A stretch of DNA of 39,838 nt from a virus: positions 1-39,838 of IMG/VR virus record IMGVR_UViG_3300009285_003680; one strand, 5' to 3'. Made by a program: the position numbers and the translations under genes. Under the pieces are notes generated by a model, which was not told where the DNA came from, searched no databases, and worked only from the letters and a program-made list of their open reading frames with translations. Positions 10,133 to 32,088 of the stretch are shown piece after piece (the stretch's first letter is position 1; the number at the start of each line of letters is the position of its first letter).

Positions 10133-10335
10133 TCCTCTCTCGTATCTCTATGCCGCTGCATTTTCCTCTCCGACAGAAGAAGCCTTCGTACCATCAAATC
10201 CGTCACAATAGGTTTCTTCCCATGTCGTACTCTATCGTAACAGACAAAACAAATTGGCCGGGCTTTCTCAAACAAATAATCTACACTTCTTATGTTCCCT
10301 CTACATCTGCAACAAGAAATCAATACTAATGTCAT
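10129..10335 (-). CDS. Small zinc-ribbon-like protein
   Basis: A 68-aa protein with two Cys pairs (CCRC near residue 8 and CFVC near residue 29) spaced as in treble-clef or zinc-ribbon folds, then a basic helical tail. The start overlaps the VWA gene stop (ATGA). Function unknown. Confidence 0.7.
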   Translation of the reverse strand: MTLVLISCCRCRGNIRSVDYLFEKARPICFVCYDRVRHGKKPIVTDLMVRRLLLSERKMQRHRDTRED

Positions 10336-11660
10336 AGCTCATCCACATCCAATCTTTGGAGTCTGTAATTCCCGTCTTCATCCTTGATCGGTTTCCATGT
10401 TTTATCGAACAAAGTAAGCACAGGCAATTTCTCCAGCACTATCTGATATACTTTTGCGCCGCTTTTCTTCTTTAACTCCTCCGCTTTCTTCCGACTCTCC
10501 CCCTGTGACGCCGAATCCAGTCCATCCGATATCACCAAGACTTCCTGCTTTTTCCATTTCTTCACTCCCTTTTCCCGCAAACTTTCCAGAACTTGCTTGT
10601 CGCATGATAATGCCGCAAGAATGGAGGCATACAAAGCCGTGGTACCGGAAGGTTGCATATCTTGAATATACTTAACTCCTTTTCCTAAAGAATCCTTATC
10701 ATGCACAACCATGTAAGGTCCAGGAGCCCCAGAAAACGATTGCACCACATAAACATCCCCTCTTTCACTCACTTTCCGAAGCAGCGCAATAGAGAATGCT
10801 TTTGCAAGAGTAATCTTACCGTTTTTTCTCATTGAAAATGATGTATCCACCAATACATGAAGTATCTGTTTCTCTTCTTTTTCTCCAGACTGTGCTCTCA
10901 CCGACAATGAATTTCTGATTCCCTTCGCAATGAACACATCATCATCCTGTGCATGCTCCAAAGAAGATGCTTTTGACGCATCCAACAACCCGCTTGTTTT
11001 ATGCACAGGATCTCCCACTTGTGTTTTCTTTCCCACCGATGGGCTGATCTCCCCAACCAATCCCTCCAATTGGCAGGAAAGAACATAGATGGGAAGAACA
11101 GCAGGAAACTTCCAAAGGATATCTTCCACTTCGTTTAATTTCTGTGGAACTCTCAACGAATCAAAATATCCGCTATCTCCTGCCATCCCGCAAGCCATCT
11201 GCATAAAAGGATCGGAAAAGATACCCAGCGCCATAATCCAAGAAAGCTCAGGGCTCTGTCCACCATTACCAGTGAAAGCCGCACTCTTTTCTTCCGACAC
11301 CTCAAAACCCTTATGCCCTCTCACGGCAACTTTGACTCTGCAAAGAAGACCCAGGAACTTGTCAGTAGAAACAAGCGCGTTGTCAGATTTGAATAACTGA
11401 AACCATCCTCTAGAATGAAAATCCTCTAACAATAGTTTCTTTCTTGTGGAAGTTACATAATCAAGCCAGTCAGTCTTATCCCCCCTCTCCGACCGGATAT
11501 CCCTCTGTAAATCAACATCTGCCTTGATGGATCTCCCGCCATACTTGAAAATCGTATAGATATCCGCCACCATCGAAGAATCAAAAATCTTATATTTGTC
11601 CGCTATTTCAGCAAGAGCTTTTGCCACTCTTTTTGGAACAATGCTTGCTGTAACTCTCAC
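10332..11660 (-). CDS. VWA-domain protein (ViaA/CoxE-like partner of MoxR)
   Basis: A 442-aa protein with a helical N-terminal region of about 260 residues and a C-terminal von Willebrand A domain. The MIDAS motif DTSFSM lies near residue 270, then SGTTALYAS and VLVISDGLDSAS supply the other metal-binding positions. Such proteins work with MoxR AAA+ ATPases as metal-dependent adaptors, as in RavA-ViaA. Here the ATPase gene is directly upstream and overlaps by ATGA, so the pair is very likely co-translated. Confidence 0.88.
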   Translation of the reverse strand: MRVTASIVPKRVAKALAEIADKYKIFDSSMVADIYTIFKYGGRSIKADVDLQRDIRSERGDKTDWLDYVTSTRKKLLLEDFHSRGWFQLFKSDNALVSTDKFLGLLCRVKVAVRGHKGFEVSEEKSAAFTGNGGQSPELSWIMALGIFSDPFMQMACGMAGDSGYFDSLRVPQKLNEVEDILWKFPAVLPIYVLSCQLEGLVGEISPSVGKKTQVGDPVHKTSGLLDASKASSLEHAQDDDVFIAKGIRNSLSVRAQSGEKEEKQILHVLVDTSFSMRKNGKITLAKAFSIALLRKVSERGDVYVVQSFSGAPGPYMVVHDKDSLGKGVKYIQDMQPSGTTALYASILAALSCDKQVLESLREKGVKKWKKQEVLVISDGLDSASQGESRKKAEELKKKSGAKVYQIVLEKLPVLTLFDKTWKPIKDEDGNYRLQRLDVDEL

Positions 11661-13015
11661 AAAAGACTCCTTATGATTTTCGCAAACGCAGAAATAGGAA
11701 TCGTACTATACGCTTTAGTCATTGGGTATCCGTCATTCTTAATTTCATGTACTAAACTAGTGAGACCCGACAGATCGTGAAGATCGGATTCTCTCTCCAG
11801 ACTTTTATCGTTAAAAACTACTTTCAAAAACCCACAAAATAAAGCACACAGATCCCGCAGCAAAAACACTTCGGAAGATCTCTCAATGGAAACTGACTCT
11901 ACACTATTACGCAAGGACTCTACAAATCTGGAAAGTGACAATGACTTATTCTCAGATATAAGACCTTCCAACCCTTCCTTCATACTGTCATGACCAAGAA
12001 TCCACCTGTTATCAACACCATGTGGAGAATACTTTGTGATCCATACTAGCCCGCAAAGCAGGACATTCATTCTTCCAAAATCTTCCAACGCACCCTCGGA
12101 GACGAGATTCTTTTTGTCCCCACCGTACTGAGCAAGCACGTTCACAATTGAAGAAGCAAACGCCTCCATCTGCTTCCCTTCATGGAGGACAGGCAACACA
12201 AGACTTAGTTCTTCCAGATCTCTCACCGCTACTTTTTCCCGGCCATCCAACAAAGCAACCGCTCTCAATACATTCATCAATCTGAACAATCTCCTATCAC
12301 TGATCTTGACAGAAGAAGACTCAGAAAATTGATCTACCAGAAGCAACAGGGCCTTTCTCGAAGTACTTCTAATCCTTACATCAAAAGCTTTTTTGGAAAG
12401 ATGTTCCAACATTCCATACGGCATCTTTGGGCCATCAAGAAGATCTCCTTTCAACTTCAACAACTTAATTCTGGACTTCACAGACAAAGACTGGATCTTT
12501 GATCGGAACAAGAATCTATCGAACACCGCTTCCGATTCCTCTTTTGCATCGACATAATTGGAAGTAGCGATAGCTGTGTGTAACGGACACACTAATTTCT
12601 GCCGCCCCCTGCTGAATGTTCTTTCGTTTAGAACTTCCAGCAGAGATCTCCTCAAGTTGCCACTCGCATCAAAAAATTCGTCCAAAAACGCGAATGTAGC
12701 CGTAGGCAGCATTCCATCGACGTTGTACTCAATAACTCCTTCTTCTCGTACTTTCTTCGGATTGATCGGCCCAAAAATAGAGTCATCCGTCATATACTCG
12801 TTCAGTTGTATCGAAAACACAGGGCTCTTAAAGCAATTGAACACAGCACGGGATAGATAACTTTTCCCGGTACCTGTTTCACCGAACAAAAGAACGTGCT
12901 CTTTCGTGAGCAATGCCAGAATAATCTGCCGGATCACCCTTTCACGATCCAGAACCTTCTCATTCAGCCAAGTCTCTATTTCCTCTAATCGTGCCAAGCA
13001 GTTTATTGTTTTCAT
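11657..13015 (-). CDS. MoxR/RavA-type AAA+ ATPase
   Basis: A 452-aa AAA+ ATPase. Walker A is GETGTGKS (45-52), Walker B FAFLDEF (108-114), sensor 1 ATSN near residue 148, and an arginine-finger segment FDRFLFR follows. LNEYMTDDSIFGP matches the MoxR-family helix-2 insert. The long C-terminal half fits RavA-sized proteins better than short MoxR enzymes. The pair with the VWA gene suggests a chaperone-like remodelling complex. The start at 13015 is preferred over the GTG at 13036, which has no ribosome-binding site. Confidence 0.9.
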   Translation of the reverse strand: MKTINCLARLEEIETWLNEKVLDRERVIRQIILALLTKEHVLLFGETGTGKSYLSRAVFNCFKSPVFSIQLNEYMTDDSIFGPINPKKVREEGVIEYNVDGMLPTATFAFLDEFFDASGNLRRSLLEVLNERTFSRGRQKLVCPLHTAIATSNYVDAKEESEAVFDRFLFRSKIQSLSVKSRIKLLKLKGDLLDGPKMPYGMLEHLSKKAFDVRIRSTSRKALLLLVDQFSESSSVKISDRRLFRLMNVLRAVALLDGREKVAVRDLEELSLVLPVLHEGKQMEAFASSIVNVLAQYGGDKKNLVSEGALEDFGRMNVLLCGLVWITKYSPHGVDNRWILGHDSMKEGLEGLISENKSLSLSRFVESLRNSVESVSIERSSEVFLLRDLCALFCGFLKVVFNDKSLERESDLHDLSGLTSLVHEIKNDGYPMTKAYSTIPISAFAKIIRSLL

Positions 13016-13025
13016 GTCAAACTCT

Positions 13026-13373
13026 TCACTCCCCACATCGTTTGCACTTCTTTCTTAGCGGCTTGCCACAACACCACTTTTCCCCGTACCGGACATACCG
13101 CTCGCCATAAGGATGAAGCTTTTTGTCATCCCCGATTCTGAACGACAGAGTTTCCGCCGCACACACCCTCCAAGTTTCTGTGTTGCATCCGTTGCATCCA
13201 GTGGCGCAAGGATGGTTCTTTTCCTTGCGCCAGAACTTCTCATTAACCTTCTTACACTCTTTATCACTAAACTTCTCAACCTTCCGGAAGCCACGGCGAA
13301 GGATCTTACCCGGAATAACCGGCCCTTCACCCGTGGCTTCCGTTCTCCCCGGTCCATCACCGGGGCTGCTTAT
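13026..13373 (-). CDS. Cys-rich domain, probable -1 frameshift extension
   Basis: An open frame of 115 codons in the -1 frame relative to the upstream Asp-rich gene. It has protein-like composition: a basic first half, then HPCATGCNGC, a later Cys, and WCC...C..CGE, nine Cys in all, suggesting two zinc ribbons. It has no ATG, no TTG, and only one internal GTG too far in to serve as start. It is entered exactly at the A7 slippery run at the end of the Asp-rich gene. It could instead be a single gene if the A run is one base short in the assembly, or start at a non-standard codon such as ATT. Confidence 0.6.
   Translation of the reverse strand: MSSPGDGPGRTEATGEGPVIPGKILRRGFRKVEKFSDKECKKVNEKFWRKEKNHPCATGCNGCNTETWRVCAAETLSFRIGDDKKLHPYGERYVRYGEKWCCGKPLRKKCKRCGE
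13286..13341. other. Long GC-rich hairpin inside the frameshift extension
   Basis: GGAAGCCAC pairs with GTGGCTTCC, then GGTGAAGG with CCTTCGCC (one G-T), then CCGG with CCGG around TTATT. That is about 21 base pairs in 56 nt, starting only a few bases after the frameshift stem-loop. It could strengthen ribosome pausing or affect mRNA stability. Confidence 0.6.
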
Positions 13374-13393
13374 TTTTTTCCCGTATACTCCCT
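13347..13393 (-). promoter_or_regulatory. Candidate -1 programmed frameshift signal
   Basis: In transcript order: an internal AGGGAG at 13393-13388; an 8-nt gap; the heptamer A AAA AAA in correct phase at 13379-13373; an immediate TAA stop; a 7-nt spacer counted from the end of the heptamer; and a 7-bp GC stem-loop CCCCGGT-GATGG-ACCGGGG at 13365-13347. This is the same order and similar spacing as in E. coli dnaX. Confidence 0.7.
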
Positions 13394-14380
13394 CACCACA
13401 CTATTTGATCTACGGGTAGCTCCTTGTTCCGAACTGCCAAGAACCTTTGACGCCGCCTTCCGGTCTGACTTATCTTTAGAGCCACCACTCAACGCGGCAA
13501 TCGCTGCCAGTCCACTCTTCAACACTTCTCCATCGCCTTTAAGCCCAAGCTTTTCACCAAGTTCTTGAATCTCTTTCTTACTCATCCCCTCAATCTCATC
13601 AGCCGAAGGAAAGCCGCCCTTCTTGCCGGACTTTTTGTTCTTCTTCGGCTTTTCCTCTTCTGCATCGTCATCATCCTCGTCTTCATCTGGCTTAGACTTT
13701 TTTCCTTTCTTCGGTTTCTCGTCTTCATCGTCTTCGTCGTCATCGTCATCGTCGTCGGAGTCCGCATCAAACTTCAGCTTGTCTTCTGGGATGAGATCAG
13801 AAAACTTGACCTTCTTTTTCTCTCCATCCTCCAACTTCACTACAGCTTTGCTGCCATCAATACTCTTGATAGTAACAGCATCAAAAGACCCCTTCTCATC
13901 AGGAGCCTCGATATATGCCTTGTCTCCGACTTTCAACTCAGACTTTTCATCATCATCGTCGTTGTCAGACTTTTTTCCCTTCTTCGGCTTCTCATCATCG
14001 TCATCATCGTCATCATCGTCATCATCATCGTCTTCATCGTCATCATCATCGTCTTCGTCTTCGTCGTCATCATCGTCATCGTCTTCATCATCGTCTTCAT
14101 CAGATTTTGACTTCTTTTCTTTCTTCGGCTTCTCATCCTCATCATCGTCGTCATCATCATCGTCTTCATCAGATTTTGACTTCTTGCCCTTCTTTGGCTT
14201 TTCATCTTCGTCATCGTCGTCATCATCGTCTTCGTCATTGGACTTGGACTTCTTTCCTTTCTTTGGCTCTTCTTCCTCGTCTTCATCTTCCTCTTCCGTC
14301 TCCACCAACTCTTCCACCAAGTCCCCAATCTCTTCCAGAAGCTCTTTGATCTTCTTCGTCGTTTTTCCGGCGTCTGCCAT
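13370..14380 (-). CDS. Asp/Lys-rich repeat protein with Tudor/SH3-like core
   Basis: A 336-aa protein, zero-frame product. An N-terminal helix of about 30 residues precedes repeated units of the form EKPKKGKKSKSDE plus a long Asp run, which alternate strongly basic and acidic blocks. A compact domain (about residues 155-205, ELKVGDKAYIEAP ... FSDLIPED) resembles a Tudor/SH3 barrel. Another Asp-rich stretch and a SAP-like helix pair (SADEIEGMSKKEIQELGEKLG) follow. The function is unknown; DNA or protein scaffolding would fit. A sigma70 promoter lies about 110 bases upstream and a strong GGAGG site precedes the ATG. The gene ends in the frameshift signal. Confidence 0.85.
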   Translation of the reverse strand: MADAGKTTKKIKELLEEIGDLVEELVETEEEDEDEEEEPKKGKKSKSNDEDDDDDDDEDEKPKKGKKSKSDEDDDDDDDDEDEKPKKEKKSKSDEDDDEDDDDDDDEDEDDDDDDEDDDDDDDDDDDDDEKPKKGKKSDNDDDDEKSELKVGDKAYIEAPDEKGSFDAVTIKSIDGSKAVVKLEDGEKKKVKFSDLIPEDKLKFDADSDDDDDDDEDDEDEKPKKGKKSKPDEDEDDDDAEEEKPKKNKKSGKKGGFPSADEIEGMSKKEIQELGEKLGLKGDGEVLKSGLAAIAALSGGSKDKSDRKAASKVLGSSEQGATRRSNSVVREYTGKK

Positions 14381-14490
14381 GTCAATATCCTCCGTTCACC
14401 CAAAAAACCAAAAAACACAACCACACATCTAACAAGCTACACTTTCCCCCTTTCTATGGAAGGCTAAATCTCCCCTATTCACCAGACGGT

Positions 14491-14519
14491 ATTCTAACAG
14501 AATCACTTGCCGATGTCAA
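14491..14519 (-). promoter_or_regulatory. Sigma70-type promoter
   Basis: Minus strand TTGACA, 17-bp spacer, TAGAAT. It lies in the gap between the QueE stop and the Asp-rich gene and would give a leader of about 100 nt ending in GGAGGATATTGACATG. Confidence 0.85.
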
Positions 14520-14527
14520 GAAAAAAG

Positions 14528-15694
14528 CTAAGAAAAACCAACGATTTTATGCCACTGGGGAAGGATTCTAACGCCAAACTCCGCAAGCTCCTTGGACTGC
14601 TCCACCAATCGCCGGTAGTGATTCAGATAATGCTCCCTGTCATTCCGCCAGACAGGAACCAGCACAATCTCGTCAAACCCCCCCCACGCTCTCTTGATAA
14701 GCTTCTCAGCCTCGTAATAGTCAGCGTCATTACACACCACAATTTTCAACTGCACATTCTTCGCGCCAGCAGGAGACCACAGCCCGAATGTACCAAGCAC
14801 TTCTTCCGAATACTTCTCCACTTGCGCCCCACTCATCTTTGGGCTCACCGTCCAACGACCAAACATGGAAAGAAGCTCCCTGCTTGGAGACACATACCCG
14901 GACGTTTCAATCGCCAAACTATACATATTCTTCAAGCATCGGCACAACTCTTCCAGCAATTCACTTGGCTGATCCAATGGCTCCCCACCAGAAAAAACAA
15001 TCAGTGTTCCTGGAGGACATTTGGCTTTGATATCGTCAACAACTTCAGCCACAGTCTTCCCAGTTCCTCCACCCTTCCAGTAGTCATAATCACAATTCTT
15101 GACAGGAAACCCTTCCGCAATGAAGTTGCTGCTCTCCGTTGTGAGGGTTACAACCACTTCCGGATCTTCCCATATTGACATTTTCAATACAGACACTTCT
15201 TCAAAGAATTCTGGGTTCTTCTCCGAGAGCCTAATCAGCTTCGTCCCACTCCCGATAATTCTCTCGATAGGAAGATATTTACCCTTCTTCGTCCAGAACT
15301 TGTGGTCCGGTGTGCAGACCACTTCTTTTCCATCTGAAAAAGTCACCACACAAATCTTTGCTTCCCTGCTCGCCACCCTTTTTACCTTTGTCTCCACAAC
15401 TCTAAACCCAGGTTTATCCGCTTGCGGCTCAAATCCCATAATCGCAGAACCAGGATACGCAGATTCAACAGGCTTCCACTGAAGGTCAGACCCAAGAATC
15501 TTTGTTCCTTTGGCAAAACACCACACACACCCCAAAGAACAACCATAAAATCTGAGAAACGCCGCGTGTCTTCCGATATCTGCACCTTCCCCTTGAATGG
15601 TATCCAGATCAATATAATCTTTTGTAAAGTAGAGTTTGCCTTCTTCAAACACTGGCTTCTTTGACCAGTATTGCTCCGCTCTTTCCCACCCCAT
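14528..15694 (-). CDS. queE: QueE, 7-carboxy-7-deazaguanine synthase, with intein
   Basis: Radical SAM enzyme converting 6-carboxytetrahydropterin to 7-carboxy-7-deazaguanine. The precursor is 388 aa. DTIQGEG and the CX3CX2C cluster motif (Cys52, Cys56, third Cys) are clear, as is the SAM-binding VFSGGEPLDQP. A 142-residue intein (residues 59-200) separates Cys56-Val-Trp from CDYDYW, so the third cluster cysteine is supplied by Cys201 only after splicing. The mature enzyme would be 246 aa, normal for QueE. The start ATG overlaps the FolE stop (TGATG) with AAGGAG upstream. Confidence 0.93.
   Translation of the reverse strand: MGWERAEQYWSKKPVFEEGKLYFTKDYIDLDTIQGEGADIGRHAAFLRFYGCSLGCVWCFAKGTKILGSDLQWKPVESAYPGSAIMGFEPQADKPGFRVVETKVKRVASREAKICVVTFSDGKEVVCTPDHKFWTKKGKYLPIERIIGSGTKLIRLSEKNPEFFEEVSVLKMSIWEDPEVVVTLTTESSNFIAEGFPVKNCDYDYWKGGGTGKTVAEVVDDIKAKCPPGTLIVFSGGEPLDQPSELLEELCRCLKNMYSLAIETSGYVSPSRELLSMFGRWTVSPKMSGAQVEKYSEEVLGTFGLWSPAGAKNVQLKIVVCNDADYYEAEKLIKRAWGGFDEIVLVPVWRNDREHYLNHYRRLVEQSKELAEFGVRILPQWHKIVGFS
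15095..15520 (-). mobile_element. Mini-intein in queE
   Basis: In-frame 142-codon insert beginning with Cys (block A, CFAKGTKIL) and ending in Asn, followed by Cys as +1 nucleophile. Block B has TPDH with the conserved His. Block F is replaced in part (TTESSNFIAEGFPVKN): the usual block F and penultimate His residues are Ser and Lys, changes that some active inteins tolerate. There is no room for a homing endonuclease, so it is a mini-intein that can splice but not home. Confidence 0.9.
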
Positions 15695-16230
15695 CACCTG
15701 CTCCTTATTAGCGACAAAAATTCCGCCCGCAATGTATTAGCTAATTTCCCTCTTTGCGCCGAAGTTATTGTGGTGCTCCTTGCTTTCTTCACACCCCTGG
15801 CCGTCATACAGGAATGACTCGCCCGAACAACCACAAACAGAGCCCTCGCTTTCAGATGTCCCTGAAGATAGTCCGCGATATTCTCAGTCAATGATTCTTG
15901 AGTCTGTGGTTTCCCCGACAAATAATCAACCACTCTCCCAAATTTCGACAGACCTGCCATCCCCTTATTAGGCAGATACCCAATTGAAACTGTGCCTACA
16001 TATAACATCAAATGATGGGGACAAAGGCAGGCCATATCAATCTCGTCCACTACAATCAACTGATCTATAGTCCCTCCACGAAATACTGTGAATTTTGGTT
16101 CTTCTTTCCAGAGTTCTTTGAAAAATCTTGCTACCCTTTCCGGAGTTTCTTTGAAGTCTTCGTGTTGAAGATTCACGCCAATCCCCTTCAAAATTTCCCG
16201 CACTCCACACTCGATTCTTTTTACGTCCAT
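15694..16230 (-). CDS. folE: FolE, GTP cyclohydrolase I
   Basis: Converts GTP to 7,8-dihydroneopterin triphosphate, the first step to 7-deazaguanines. The 178-aa protein has zinc ligands Cys70 and His73 in CLCPHHLM and Cys141 in HSCMTARG, plus the GLSKFGRVVDYLSG and QESLTENIADYL segments typical of the family. It is a little shorter than E. coli FolE (222 aa) and lacks only N-terminal residues. The ATG at 16230 has AAGGTG directly before it, immediately after a terminator hairpin, so expression may depend on read-through or its own weak promoter. QueE follows with a 1-base overlap. Confidence 0.95.
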   Translation of the reverse strand: MDVKRIECGVREILKGIGVNLQHEDFKETPERVARFFKELWKEEPKFTVFRGGTIDQLIVVDEIDMACLCPHHLMLYVGTVSIGYLPNKGMAGLSKFGRVVDYLSGKPQTQESLTENIADYLQGHLKARALFVVVRASHSCMTARGVKKARSTTITSAQRGKLANTLRAEFLSLIRSR

Positions 16231-16534: not shown

Positions 16535-16972
16535 TCACAGACCCGAAAAGTCAACTGTTCTTCGCACTAAATTCGGGGCCAATTCGCTATCTGGCCCGTT
16601 ACCCCATTCCACGACAGTTTTGATGTTCCCACGAACATTGAAATCCATCACAACCCGCAAAGCATCTTTCCCAACTCCAAGCTGTGCCAACAACTTCTGA
16701 CCAATCAATGCAGGCAAATCCTCATGGAAGAACCCCTCATCCCTGAAACCATTCAACCACAACTTGAGGCTTTTCAATTCTACAATTCTGCCCACTGGAA
16801 TATAAGAAATATAAACAGTGGCAAAATCTGGAAATCCACTCCGAGGACACTTGCAGGTAAATTCCGGGCACCTCATCCGTACAACCGTACCACATAAAGT
16901 GGGCTTGTCTAAACAGACAAGTCCTGCTTCGCTTATCTCTTTCTCCCCGTACAGAAGATCAGATGTCGGCAT
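16535..16972 (-). CDS. queF: QueF, preQ0 reductase (unimodular)
   Basis: NADPH-dependent nitrile reductase that turns preQ0 into preQ1. The 145-aa protein is of the short, unimodular type. The nucleophile Cys42 and the acid Asp49 are present in [19 protein letters not shown]. The NADPH-binding signature ELKSLKLW (65-72) fits the QueF consensus, and GFFHED (80-85) follows. Retention of that signature argues against the QueF-like amidinotransferase that makes archaeosine. The start overlaps the queC-like stop by 14 bases. It predicts that preQ1, not preQ0, is the end product. Confidence 0.93.
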
Positions 16973-17666
16973 GAAGTATCTCCCCAGATAGCGCCCTCTC
17001 TCTCAACAAGGACTCCCTCTGTAAACAAACTTTGCATACCCCGCATTGACCCGTCATGGAATAACTGCACGAGAAAGTTCTGCTCAAATCCACATCAAAC
17101 TTCACTGCCAAGTTAACTACATCTTCTTTTGCCATTCCCATGCGGAGATATGGCGCAAGCAAAGTTGGCGCGTCCGATGCGCAAAACCCACCAGCATCCC
17201 GCAAGTATTCCCATGCATCTAGAAAATCCAGGTCACGATCTACTTTATGCGGATTTTCCGAAGGCTCTTCCCAATGCTGCCCAATGTAAAGATCCATTCC
17301 GTAGTTCGACGCCACTACCGCCGCCGTTGTCAGAACAAGCATCCCCCAACCATTCATGTAGTCAGCATGAAGTGGACTTCTATTTCTCTCTGGAAGAGTA
17401 TCTATAAAAGCAGGGCTTTTTTTAAGTGATTCAGATAATGGATAATTGATTTTTACCGACTCCCGAACAATTGGCCAATCCAACTTCGCTACATGATAAT
17501 CCACAAACCTCTTCGTCAGGGAATATGTCTTCTGCCCGTAATCCACATCCAGAGCAATGATTTTCTGCTGGCCGCCAACTCGAAGACAAAACGTTTCTGG
17601 GAGCTTCACCATCCAATAAAGCAATACAGTAGAATCAATTCCACCGGATGTTAGCACGACAGCCAT
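16959..17666 (-). CDS. QueC-like PP-loop protein (divergent paralogue)
   Basis: A 235-aa PP-loop ATPase. SGGIDST (7-13) is the ATP-binding loop, DVDYGQK matches the QueC DYGQ motif, and [15 protein letters not shown] near the C-terminus supplies a four-Cys zinc site. The QueC substrate loop with GYPDCR is replaced by an unrelated segment ([17 protein letters not shown]). With a canonical QueC gene 0.8 kb upstream, it may act on a different deazaguanine carboxylate or amide. The ATG overlaps the previous stop (TAATG). Confidence 0.85.
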
Positions 17667-18454
17667 TATACCAACCTCTTGTACAGTTCCACACAGATCG
17701 CCAAATCTGAAAGACCCCTCCCCCACGAACGAAACAATGTCCGCTTTGCCGGTGCAATCATAAGACCAAGAGGAACCCCAACTCCACCAGATGCTCCATC
17801 TACATCAAAAAATGTGTTCTGAAATTGGGCATGTACCAACGCGTCCACAGCATATCTGCATAGATCAGCCATGAAAAACAAAACATCCACTACCTGAAAT
17901 CGAATGAACGGATAGATTGTCTCTTCCGTAACCGCCACTACCAGTACAGTGTTCACCAGATTCACTGGGAGATGCAAAGGCACAGAATTACTCGTATCAA
18001 AAGTCACAACATCTGAACATTCCGGAAAGAACTTTTTGTGGGCTTCCGCTATCGGCCCCTTTCCAATCAGCAACAACTGGAACTCTTTTTTCAGTTCCGC
18101 CGGACAACAATCTTCAAAAACATACCTCGTTGTTGCTGCCGTCCGATAAGCCGAGATTCTTCCAGCGTCAAATATAGCTAGGGGCTTCCCTGTCCTGAAG
18201 TCATTCAATACGATAACCGGATTGGCTCGCGGAATCTGCCCAGGAATAGAAGGTGTCCATTTTACCGCACAAAAATCACCCTCTTGAATTACATGCGCCA
18301 ACAATCGGTGACTCCCCGGCTTGTCATATTTGATTGTGGCTACTTCTTCCCGACCGCCGCTGCTATAAGCCCTCTTATATGAATCCCGGATGATCTGTAC
18401 ATACTCTTCATCTTTGAGAATACCGGAAATATCTCCATCCGTGAACAACTTCAT
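17666..18454 (-). CDS. Ornithine cyclodeaminase/mu-crystallin family protein
   Basis: A 262-aa NAD(P)-dependent Rossmann enzyme. Characteristic pieces are NPVIVLNDFRTGKPLAIFDAG, ISAYRTAATTRY, the dinucleotide loop LLIGKGPIAEAH and the C-terminal GRGLSDLAICVELYK. Family members perform cyclodeamination, imine reduction or amino acid dehydrogenation. It is about 60-80 residues shorter than usual, lacking parts of the middle. It lies between two queC genes with stop-start overlaps on both sides (ATGA and TAATG), so a role in the deazaguanine pathway is likely, though none is known to me for this family. Confidence 0.85.
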   Translation of the reverse strand: MKLFTDGDISGILKDEEYVQIIRDSYKRAYSSGGREEVATIKYDKPGSHRLLAHVIQEGDFCAVKWTPSIPGQIPRANPVIVLNDFRTGKPLAIFDAGRISAYRTAATTRYVFEDCCPAELKKEFQLLLIGKGPIAEAHKKFFPECSDVVTFDTSNSVPLHLPVNLVNTVLVVAVTEETIYPFIRFQVVDVLFFMADLCRYAVDALVHAQFQNTFFDVDGASGGVGVPLGLMIAPAKRTLFRSWGRGLSDLAICVELYKRLV

Positions 18455-19101
18455 CCCACCACCAGAGGATCAACAATCCCAACTTCTCTAAATCCCTTTT
18501 CACGCAACAAGCAAGCAGAGCATACCCCACAAGGTGGCTTTTTCCCTTCGTAACAGGTATGTGTTTTTGCTAAGAGTTCCAATCCCTTCATCTCTTGCAT
18601 CCATTCCACAGTCCTTTTCTTGGTGAAATTCATCAAAGGAGTGTGAATCTGGACATTCCAATCAAAAGCTAATGAAAGACTCTTCTCCATTGAATCTATA
18701 AACTCTCTTCGGCAATCTGGATACCCCGAAAAGTCCGTCTGACACATACCCCCCACAATGTTAGACCACCCCAATTCCCAAGCTCTCGCCGCCGCCAAAG
18801 TCAGAAACAGTGCATTTCTCCCTGGCACGAAGGTTGTAGGGAGATTGTTTCGACCCTTCAATGAAATAACCGCATCCTTATTTGACAAAGCAGACTCCGA
18901 CCAAGGCACTACTTTGTGGACTTCCAACAGCACTCCCATCTCTGCCGCGAGTTCTTTAGCGCTATCAATTTCACGTTGGTGCCTCTGACCATAATCAAAT
19001 GTCACAGCCAATACATTTGAAAAAGCGCTCTTGGCCCACAACAAACAAGTCGTGCTATCTTGACCACCAGAAAAGAGAACTACTGCTCCGCTCTCTGCCA
19101 C
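18451..19101 (-). CDS. queC: QueC, 7-cyano-7-deazaguanine (preQ0) synthase
   Basis: ATP-dependent conversion of 7-carboxy-7-deazaguanine to preQ0. The 216-aa protein is canonical: SGGQDSTT (11-18), TFDYGQRHQREID, VPGRNALFLTLAAA, FSGYPDCRREFI and the zinc motif CYEGKKPPCGVCSAC. It starts at GTG 19101 after GGAGATAAAAC. The stop overlaps the next start (ATGA). Confidence 0.96.
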   Translation of the reverse strand: MAESGAVVLFSGGQDSTTCLLWAKSAFSNVLAVTFDYGQRHQREIDSAKELAAEMGVLLEVHKVVPWSESALSNKDAVISLKGRNNLPTTFVPGRNALFLTLAAARAWELGWSNIVGGMCQTDFSGYPDCRREFIDSMEKSLSLAFDWNVQIHTPLMNFTKKRTVEWMQEMKGLELLAKTHTCYEGKKPPCGVCSACLLREKGFREVGIVDPLVVG

Positions 19102-27799: not shown

Positions 27800-27845
27800 A
27801 AAAAAAGGGTGTGGCAGCAGTCGTGTCGCTAACGCCGCCACACCC
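27800..27845 (-). terminator. Rho-independent terminator
   Basis: Minus strand: GGGTGTGGC pairs with GCCACACCC around a 21-nt loop and is followed by seven T. It lies between the ssDNA-binding protein stop and the methyltransferase-like start, dividing the replication block. Confidence 0.9.
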
Positions 27846-31194: not shown

Positions 31195-31702
31195 TCCACT
31201 TCCCCATGCTGAAAAAGATTTCTGTTTTGTCGTCATCACCAATCTTGAAATAAATATCTCCAAACCAATCCTTCGTCATCTCCGTCCCAACCACGGTAAA
31301 CAAAGAGCTTCTCTGCCTCTCAAACACCAGTTGCTTGACGCATCGCGGTTCCATCCCACGCTCCTCACCCACATCCAAAATCCCAACCGCATGAGTCTGC
31401 GCCAAATATCCATTCTTATTTTCCAGATGTTGAGAAACCAAATCCCGCCCGGTCAGGATTGCCGATGTGAACCCACGGTCAGAAAAACACTGGAGCATGG
31501 ACAGAACTAAAAAATCTCTTACTTTCCTGCGTTGACTGGAAACAACCGCAGTCCACCCCTCCCCAAACTCTTCCCCCCTCAATCGTCTCTGCATCGACAG
31601 GAGCGCCCTCTTTGTGTATTTCTCAAGTCCCTTGCAACGGTATGGGCATGCTTCAAACGCCACTCTCCCGATCATGGGCGATTTACCGGCAATCCCAGCC
31701 AC
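31181..31702 (-). CDS. First gene of the replication operon, hypothetical
   Basis: A 173-aa protein with a basic, Cys-containing first half (FEACPYRCKGLEKYTKR) and a mixed second half. No family recognised. It starts at GTG 31702 after AGGAG. It is preceded by a strong promoter and a long folded leader, so it is the first gene expressed in this unit and could be a regulator. Confidence 0.7.
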   Translation of the reverse strand: MAGIAGKSPMIGRVAFEACPYRCKGLEKYTKRALLSMQRRLRGEEFGEGWTAVVSSQRRKVRDFLVLSMLQCFSDRGFTSAILTGRDLVSQHLENKNGYLAQTHAVGILDVGEERGMEPRCVKQLVFERQRSSLFTVVGTEMTKDWFGDIYFKIGDDDKTEIFFSMGKWNATR

Positions 31703-31723
31703 ACCAAGCTCCTAAAAACAACA

Positions 31724-31820
31724 ACCCCTTCACAGGAGGTCCGGGTCCGTCGTCAGCCCCTCTGTATCGTGCGCATCAAACGATACAAGGCTCCGGACGT
31801 CGGACCCCCCATGAAGGGGT
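31724..31820 (-). ncRNA. Highly folded leader element
   Basis: Nested complementarity over 97 nt: ACCCCTTCA with TGAAGGGGT, GGTCCG with CGGACC, GTCCG with CGGAC, AGCC with GGCT, and GTATCGT with ACGATAC around a 9-nt loop, 31 pairs in all. On the transcript strand it is followed by TTGTTGTTTTT and then the ribosome-binding site of the first gene, so it could be an attenuator or a regulatory leader RNA. Confidence 0.65.
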
Positions 31821-31867
31821 CGTCGTCGGCAAAAGGTCTTCGTTGTCATAATGCGCGTACCCCCACA

Positions 31868-31889
31868 CCGTTGAGGACGAACTCAACGG
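31868..31889 (-). promoter_or_regulatory. 5'-end hairpin of the replication transcript
   Basis: CCGTTGAG with CTCAACGG, 6-nt loop, starting within 2-3 nt of the predicted transcription start. Such terminal hairpins commonly protect phage mRNAs from 5'-end-dependent decay. Confidence 0.6.
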
Positions 31890-31897
31890 CAACGGGG

Positions 31898-31925
31898 ATT
31901 TTACCAGACCGTTTCCAAGTGTCAA
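31898..31925 (-). promoter_or_regulatory. Strong sigma70-type promoter
   Basis: Minus strand TTGACA, 16-bp spacer, TAAAAT, with a TGG extended -10. It is the best promoter in the window and drives the replication block through a leader of about 190 nt. Confidence 0.88.
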
Positions 31926-32088
31926 CCAAAATCCAAAAGATTTTTTTCGACTATGCATAACATATGCAACCACCCCACAAGCTAAAAGTCGGCAAAGGGA
32001 GTCTAAAAAGGGAACTAGGATAGGGCTATGGCTGCACAGGATGCCCCAAGACGCGAGATTTAAGAAAACTGGGGGGGGGAGTCATACT

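Follow-up and report, generated by a model that had tools for sequence, protein, structure and literature searches.

A candidate -1 programmed ribosomal frameshift at the end of an Asp-rich phage gene next to a MoxR/VWA gene pair

The stretch of DNA that was analysed, here called the window, is the 39,838-base IMG/VR virus record IMGVR_UViG_3300009285_003680, a single metagenomic contig on which the minus strand carries every recognisable gene. The window encodes replication proteins (PolA, a DnaB-like helicase, a primase, a UvsX-like recombinase and a helicase), DNA methyltransferases, and a 7-deazaguanine set comprising a DpdA-like transglycosylase, two QueC-like proteins, a QueF-like protein, GTP cyclohydrolase I and a QueE-like protein. 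The putative frameshift site lies at the junction between an Asp-rich ORF and a MoxR gene, and the features of this region are listed below, from upstream to downstream on the minus strand.

14491-14519, minus strand: promoter-like sequence TTGACA-17-TAGAAT with an extended -10 (TG), shortly before the Asp-rich gene
14389-14393, minus strand: Shine-Dalgarno (SD) sequence GGAGG, 8 nt ahead of the ATG of the Asp-rich gene, read directly from the sequence
13370-14380, minus strand: Asp-rich ORF in frame 0, 336 aa
13388-13393, minus strand: internal SD-like AGGGAG, 8 nt (TATACGGG) upstream of the heptamer
13373-13379, minus strand: slippery heptamer A AAA AAA, in phase
13370-13372, minus strand: frame-0 stop codon TAA, abutting the heptamer
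13026-13373, minus strand: -1 frame extension of 115 codons, closed by TGA (13026-13028)
13347-13365, minus strand: hairpin 1, a 7-bp G+C-rich stem (CCCCGGT/ACCGGGG) with a 5-nt loop, candidate stimulator
13285-13342, minus strand: hairpin 2, 12 perfect bp and an additional inner stem
13202-13232, minus strand: hairpin 3, 11 perfect bp with a 9-nt loop, within the -1 frame
11657-13015, minus strand: MoxR-type AAA+ ATPase gene, next after the -1 frame (bpMoxR PF20030, E=4.4e-39)
10332-11660, minus strand: VWA-domain gene, following the MoxR gene

The 336-aa protein consisted of Asp/Glu/Lys-rich repeats, with 88 Asp and a pI of 4.2. An SH3-like domain (Pfam Myosin_N) was detected mid-protein when the isolated domain was used as the query (E=2.2e-8); it is encoded at about 13760-13940 of the window (minus strand) and sits between poly-Asp stretches of the phage protein. 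The promoter-like site ahead of the gene matched the consensus at 11 of 12 positions and was the best of 10 such sites in the 10-18 kb region, where their total count was not above that in shuffles. At the other end of the region, the MoxR ATG at 13015 lies 10 nt past the TGA of the -1 frame, a gap that corresponds to the usual gene packing in this phage; a GTG at 13036 would overlap the -1 frame.

The preliminary description had proposed that the 3' end of the Asp-rich gene carries a slip site with its flanking signals, and when the minus strand was read directly every element was present at its position. The ORF ends in GGA AAA AAA TAA, and a 7-nt spacer (TAAGCAG) separates the A7 run from hairpin 1. 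Two general traits of -1 frameshift sites are present, an in-phase heptamer of the X XXY YYZ type inside the overlap of two frames and a 3' structure, hairpin 1, at 7 nt, within the usual 5-9 nt. The distances over which stimulators of -1 shifting work are reported as 9-14 nt for SD sequences and 5-9 nt for 3' structures (PMC5009743). The AGGGAG spacing of 8 nt is just short of the former range, and a GGTGA that overlaps AGGGAG stands 13 nt before the heptamer.

Taken individually, the SD-like sequence and hairpin 1 were unremarkable: pairing as strong as that of AGGGAG occurred at 11% of positions, and a stem of at least 7 contiguous bp at 5-9 nt downstream was found at 4.6%. In-phase A6R heptamers numbered eight in the 57 genes of the window, two of them A AAA AAG within the Lys-rich repeats of the Asp-rich gene itself, and only the A7 at 13373-13379 abuts a stop codon. 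A survey of 2,987 ORF ends (from ORFs of 150 codons or more in the window and in the retrieved loci) returned an A6N heptamer within the last seven codons in 10 cases. One of the 2,987 ends, namely this site, had such a heptamer together with a stable hairpin, an SD-like site and a long, start-less extension in the -1 frame; since the site had been chosen by eye, the figure estimates rarity and is no clean P value.

The same arrangement would result if the A-run had lost one base, by an assembly or read error or by a real mutation. The true or ancestral gene would then encode 451 aa in one continuous frame, without any programmed shift. A-runs are hot spots for indels, one added base joins both frames exactly, and the record is a lone contig with no relatives that contradict this reading. 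However, the window contains 24 runs of at least seven identical bases, 20 of them inside ORFs, and ten of these runs, spread over at least nine genes of recognised family, leave the reading frame intact. Among these genes are a methyltransferase (T8), QueE (C8), UvsX (C8), PolA (G7) and DnaB (two C7). A lost base would also leave the SD-like site and the adjacent hairpins as a coincidence, with a joint chance of roughly 0.5% if they are independent. We therefore regard it as a serious alternative on which we would not bet; if it holds, the locus warns that chance alone can place a convincing set of three signals at an A-run.

Slippage could also take place during transcription, with RNA polymerase adding an A to the run so that some mRNAs contain the fused frame. 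This would give the identical fused protein from the same A-run, and the mechanism makes a second product by homopolymer slippage in Thermus thermophilus dnaX (PMC5009743) and in spa13. The runs in those two cases are longer than the phage A7, and reported transcriptional slippage runs are of more than 7 A (PMC3711429). Moreover, slippage by the polymerase needs neither an SD sequence nor a hairpin, both of which surround the phage heptamer, and we consider it improbable here.

The 115 codons of the -1 frame were predicted to encode a Pro/Gly-rich linker followed by a basic, Cys-rich domain with nine Cys (pI about 9.5-9.6). With 336 codons before the shift, the frame lengths add up to the 336-aa and 451-aa products that had been proposed, and the predicted junction peptide of the 451-aa fusion contains ...TGKKISSPGDGPGR. 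The statement that the -1 frame has no usable start of its own was borne out as well: there was no ATG, GTG or TTG before codon 70, where the first standard start, a GTG at 13166, would leave 46 aa.

To assess coding potential, a classifier was cross-validated on phage genes of similar G+C content against spurious open frames (AUC 0.96-0.98). The -1 frame scored p=0.78 by LR and p=0.67 by RF, like many small genes of the window, and 2-3% of spurious open frames scored as high. A plain codon log-odds score was ambiguous. The -1 frame obtained -0.014, compared with means of 0.093 in frame and -0.096 out of frame, which places it below 99.8% of true gene segments and in the top 3% of out-of-frame ones. 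The extension had been described as protein-like and with nine Cys; its coding-like character stands by the classifier, while the Cys-richness was rejected as proof of a real domain, because spurious open frames show it more often than genes do. At least nine Cys per 100 aa were present in 3 of 84 spurious out-of-frame open frames and in 2 of 2,749 real in-frame segments. The Cys-rich tail had no credible match in Pfam, PHROGs or PDB sequences, and a single-sequence AlphaFold model of it was uninformative (pLDDT 45).

The Cys-rich part might instead be a separate protein that begins at a non-standard codon, for example codon 20 of the -1 frame, an ATT preceded at a good distance (6 nt) by an SD-like GAAGGG. 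ATT and ATA starts are very rare, which counts against this reading. Furthermore, the ATT site is buried in hairpin 2, and the sole standard start, the GTG at codon 70, directly abuts a GGAGG. An independent start is in our estimate very improbable.

Other ORFs of the region were rejected as genes. Frame 0 remains open for about 104 codons past the TAA, and the 101-aa ORF that starts there at a GTG (13360) had no SD near its start, a low coding score (p=0.15-0.23 for frame 0) and no match in a search for its family. The two antisense ORFs tested, on the plus strand at 13113-13568 and 13123-13419, both had coding p below 0.04.

The RNA downstream of the heptamer was predicted to be unusually structured. 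Hairpins 1 and 2 jointly reached -54.6 kcal/mol per 100 nt (z -5.2), and by G+C-corrected folding energy the window of one hundred nt that starts at the heptamer and stop ranked first among 3,974 such windows of the minus strand. Hairpin 2, far stronger than hairpin 1, and hairpin 3 were absent from the preliminary description. On the minus strand no T-run follows hairpin 1, 2 or 3, and they were consequently rejected as intrinsic terminators, unlike the structure at 27800-27845. A search of the hairpin region against Rfam gave just sub-threshold, low-complexity matches.

The structure at 27800-27845 (minus strand) lies between an SSB-like gene and a methyltransferase gene and is a strong terminator, with 12-nt arms that are 92% complementary, followed by TTTTTTT. 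A gap of ~390 nt near 31690-31925 (minus strand) contains a promoter-like TTGACA-16-TAAAAT, then a very stable long hairpin with a T-rich end. This hairpin (-118 kcal/mol over 31690-31960) is a candidate phage non-coding RNA.

That the other strongest structures of the window, at 27.8 kb and 31.8 kb, occupy gaps between genes is the main argument for yet another reading, in which the -1 frame is untranslated and 13029-13369 is a structured spacer (an attenuator, a processing site or an mRNA-stability element) ahead of the MoxR-VWA pair. Three strong hairpins within 165 nt, the weak plain codon score of the -1 frame and the fact that frame 0 is likewise open by chance fit such a spacer. However, of the frames put to the classifier the -1 frame alone was scored as coding, out-of-frame segments that stay open for 115 codons occurred just once in 950 in the genes of this phage, and the T-run is lacking after every hairpin. 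In light of this evidence an untranslated spacer appears unlikely.

Homologues of the Asp-rich or Cys-rich part were sought in 50,697 phage records, in viral contigs and in genome contigs, and none was found; the Asp-rich protein was searched both whole and by domain. The 83 whole viral records that encode a relative of MoxR, QueC or GTP cyclohydrolase likewise yielded no homologue of either part, in a search whose control recovered the query in its own record. A single match to the tail (in locus L179) was antisense to a cardiolipin-synthase-like gene and contained a stop codon, and was dismissed as chance. Kin retrieved through MoxR (80 loci), PolA (80), GTP cyclohydrolase (80) and QueC were all distant and lacked the gene pair; the closest matches by identity were about 31% for PolA, 38% for MoxR and about 44% for GTP cyclohydrolase. 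As no homologue was available for a comparative test, our confidence in a frameshift is capped.

The site had been described as dnaX-like, and the comparison with E. coli dnaX held in part. All three parts of the signal are real: an SD-like AGGGAG, an A-rich heptamer read by tRNA-Lys and a G+C-rich hairpin a few nt downstream, and in both systems two products would share an N-terminus. The heptamer, the SD spacing, the position of the stop and the order of the products differ. The phage gene is a different one, with A AAA AAA as heptamer where dnaX has A AAA AAG and with an SD spacing of 8 nt. Its stop is in frame 0, so that the shifted product is the longer one and not the short form of the E. 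coli type. In E. coli, ribosomes shift less readily on A_AAA_AAA than on A_AAA_AAG, and the reversed layout, with a stop directly after the shift site, has been described in some bacterial dnaX genes (PMC5009743).

In insertion-sequence OrfA-OrfAB systems the shift likewise fuses a first ORF to a longer second one, with SD and stem-loop stimulators and A_AAA_AAA/G signals; frameshifting is proven for an A_AAA_AAA cluster that has a stem-loop (PMC4066793). The phage site differs from these in that transposase features are absent and the appended part is 115 codons of unknown family. A minor, C-terminally extended -1 product would be shared with the G/GT tail assembly chaperone and the Ig-like domain shifts of phages. 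In contrast to these, the present site lies in a region of DNA-replication and 7-deazaguanine genes, its extension is Cys-rich and basic, its neighbours are QueE and MoxR/VWA instead of the tape-measure gene that follows a G/GT tail chaperone, and there was no PHROG match.

We favour a -1 programmed frameshift that yields 336- and 451-aa products from a non-structural phage gene, because the signals are exact, the -1 frame is coding-like, and the combination of features was found once among 2,987 ORF ends. It explains the most with the least and stands well ahead of any one rival; we place its probability at roughly 0.5. Ribosomes on the acidic-protein ORF would pause at A AAA AAA, held by pairing of AGGGAG with the 16S rRNA behind and by the hairpins ahead. 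The majority would stop at the adjacent TAA and release the 336-aa protein, and a minority may slip back one base with two Lys-tRNAs and continue with ATA AGC AGC. By analogy with a natural 7-A cassette (A_AAA_AAA), for which 10% frameshifting was measured (PMC3711429), the slipping fraction may be on the order of 10%. The slipped ribosomes would produce the 451-aa protein, in which a flexible linker carries a basic, Cys-rich tail that probably binds zinc. Such a tail could direct a fraction of the acidic protein molecules to a partner, e.g. nucleic acid or the MoxR/VWA machine.

A broader version of this reading is tentative. In an orphan phage lineage, a frameshift of reversed dnaX type may operate in a non-structural gene and would fix the ratio of a free poly-acidic SH3-domain protein to a minor form with a basic zinc tail, made as the first product of an operon with a MoxR/VWA chaperone-like pair. 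In a review, phage -1 frameshifts were mostly in head and tail genes. If the present one is real, it belongs to a known class and lies in an unusual gene. As a signal-driven shift, it would extend the known range of phage frameshifting to a non-structural, acidic protein encoded next to a MoxR/VWA pair. It would also reveal a protein overlooked by standard gene calling, as the Cys-rich part lacks a start codon.

Several minor observations were made around the locus. In frame 0, the stretch encoded at 13055-13130 (minus strand) reads MTKSFILMASGMSGTGKSGVVASR; it includes a perfect Walker A motif, GMSGTGKS at the C-terminus of the 101-aa ORF, that is preceded by a strand-like segment. Out-of-frame Walker A motifs occurred at about 0.0006 per 100 aa (2 in 332,000 aa); the motif is probably a coincidence, and it could be a gene remnant. 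On the plus strand at 13347-13379, hairpin 1 and the CTGCTTATTTTTTT after it look like an intrinsic terminator, with no plus-strand gene evident. Upstream of the Asp-rich gene, the QueE-like radical SAM protein (14528-15697, minus strand, 389 aa) has a possible intein: its match to a 247-position PHROG profile is spread across residues 33-387, and residues 99-137 gave a sub-threshold match to Pfam Intein_splicing (E 0.0017). Both QueC-like genes (16959-17726 and 18451-19101, minus strand) belong to one 7-deazaguanine cluster, the former canonical (E 3e-66) and the latter divergent (E 7e-18). A 262-aa ORF of the same cluster (17666-18454, minus strand) had a Pfam match to ornithine cyclodeaminase/mu-crystallin that was significant (E 1e-6) and partial.
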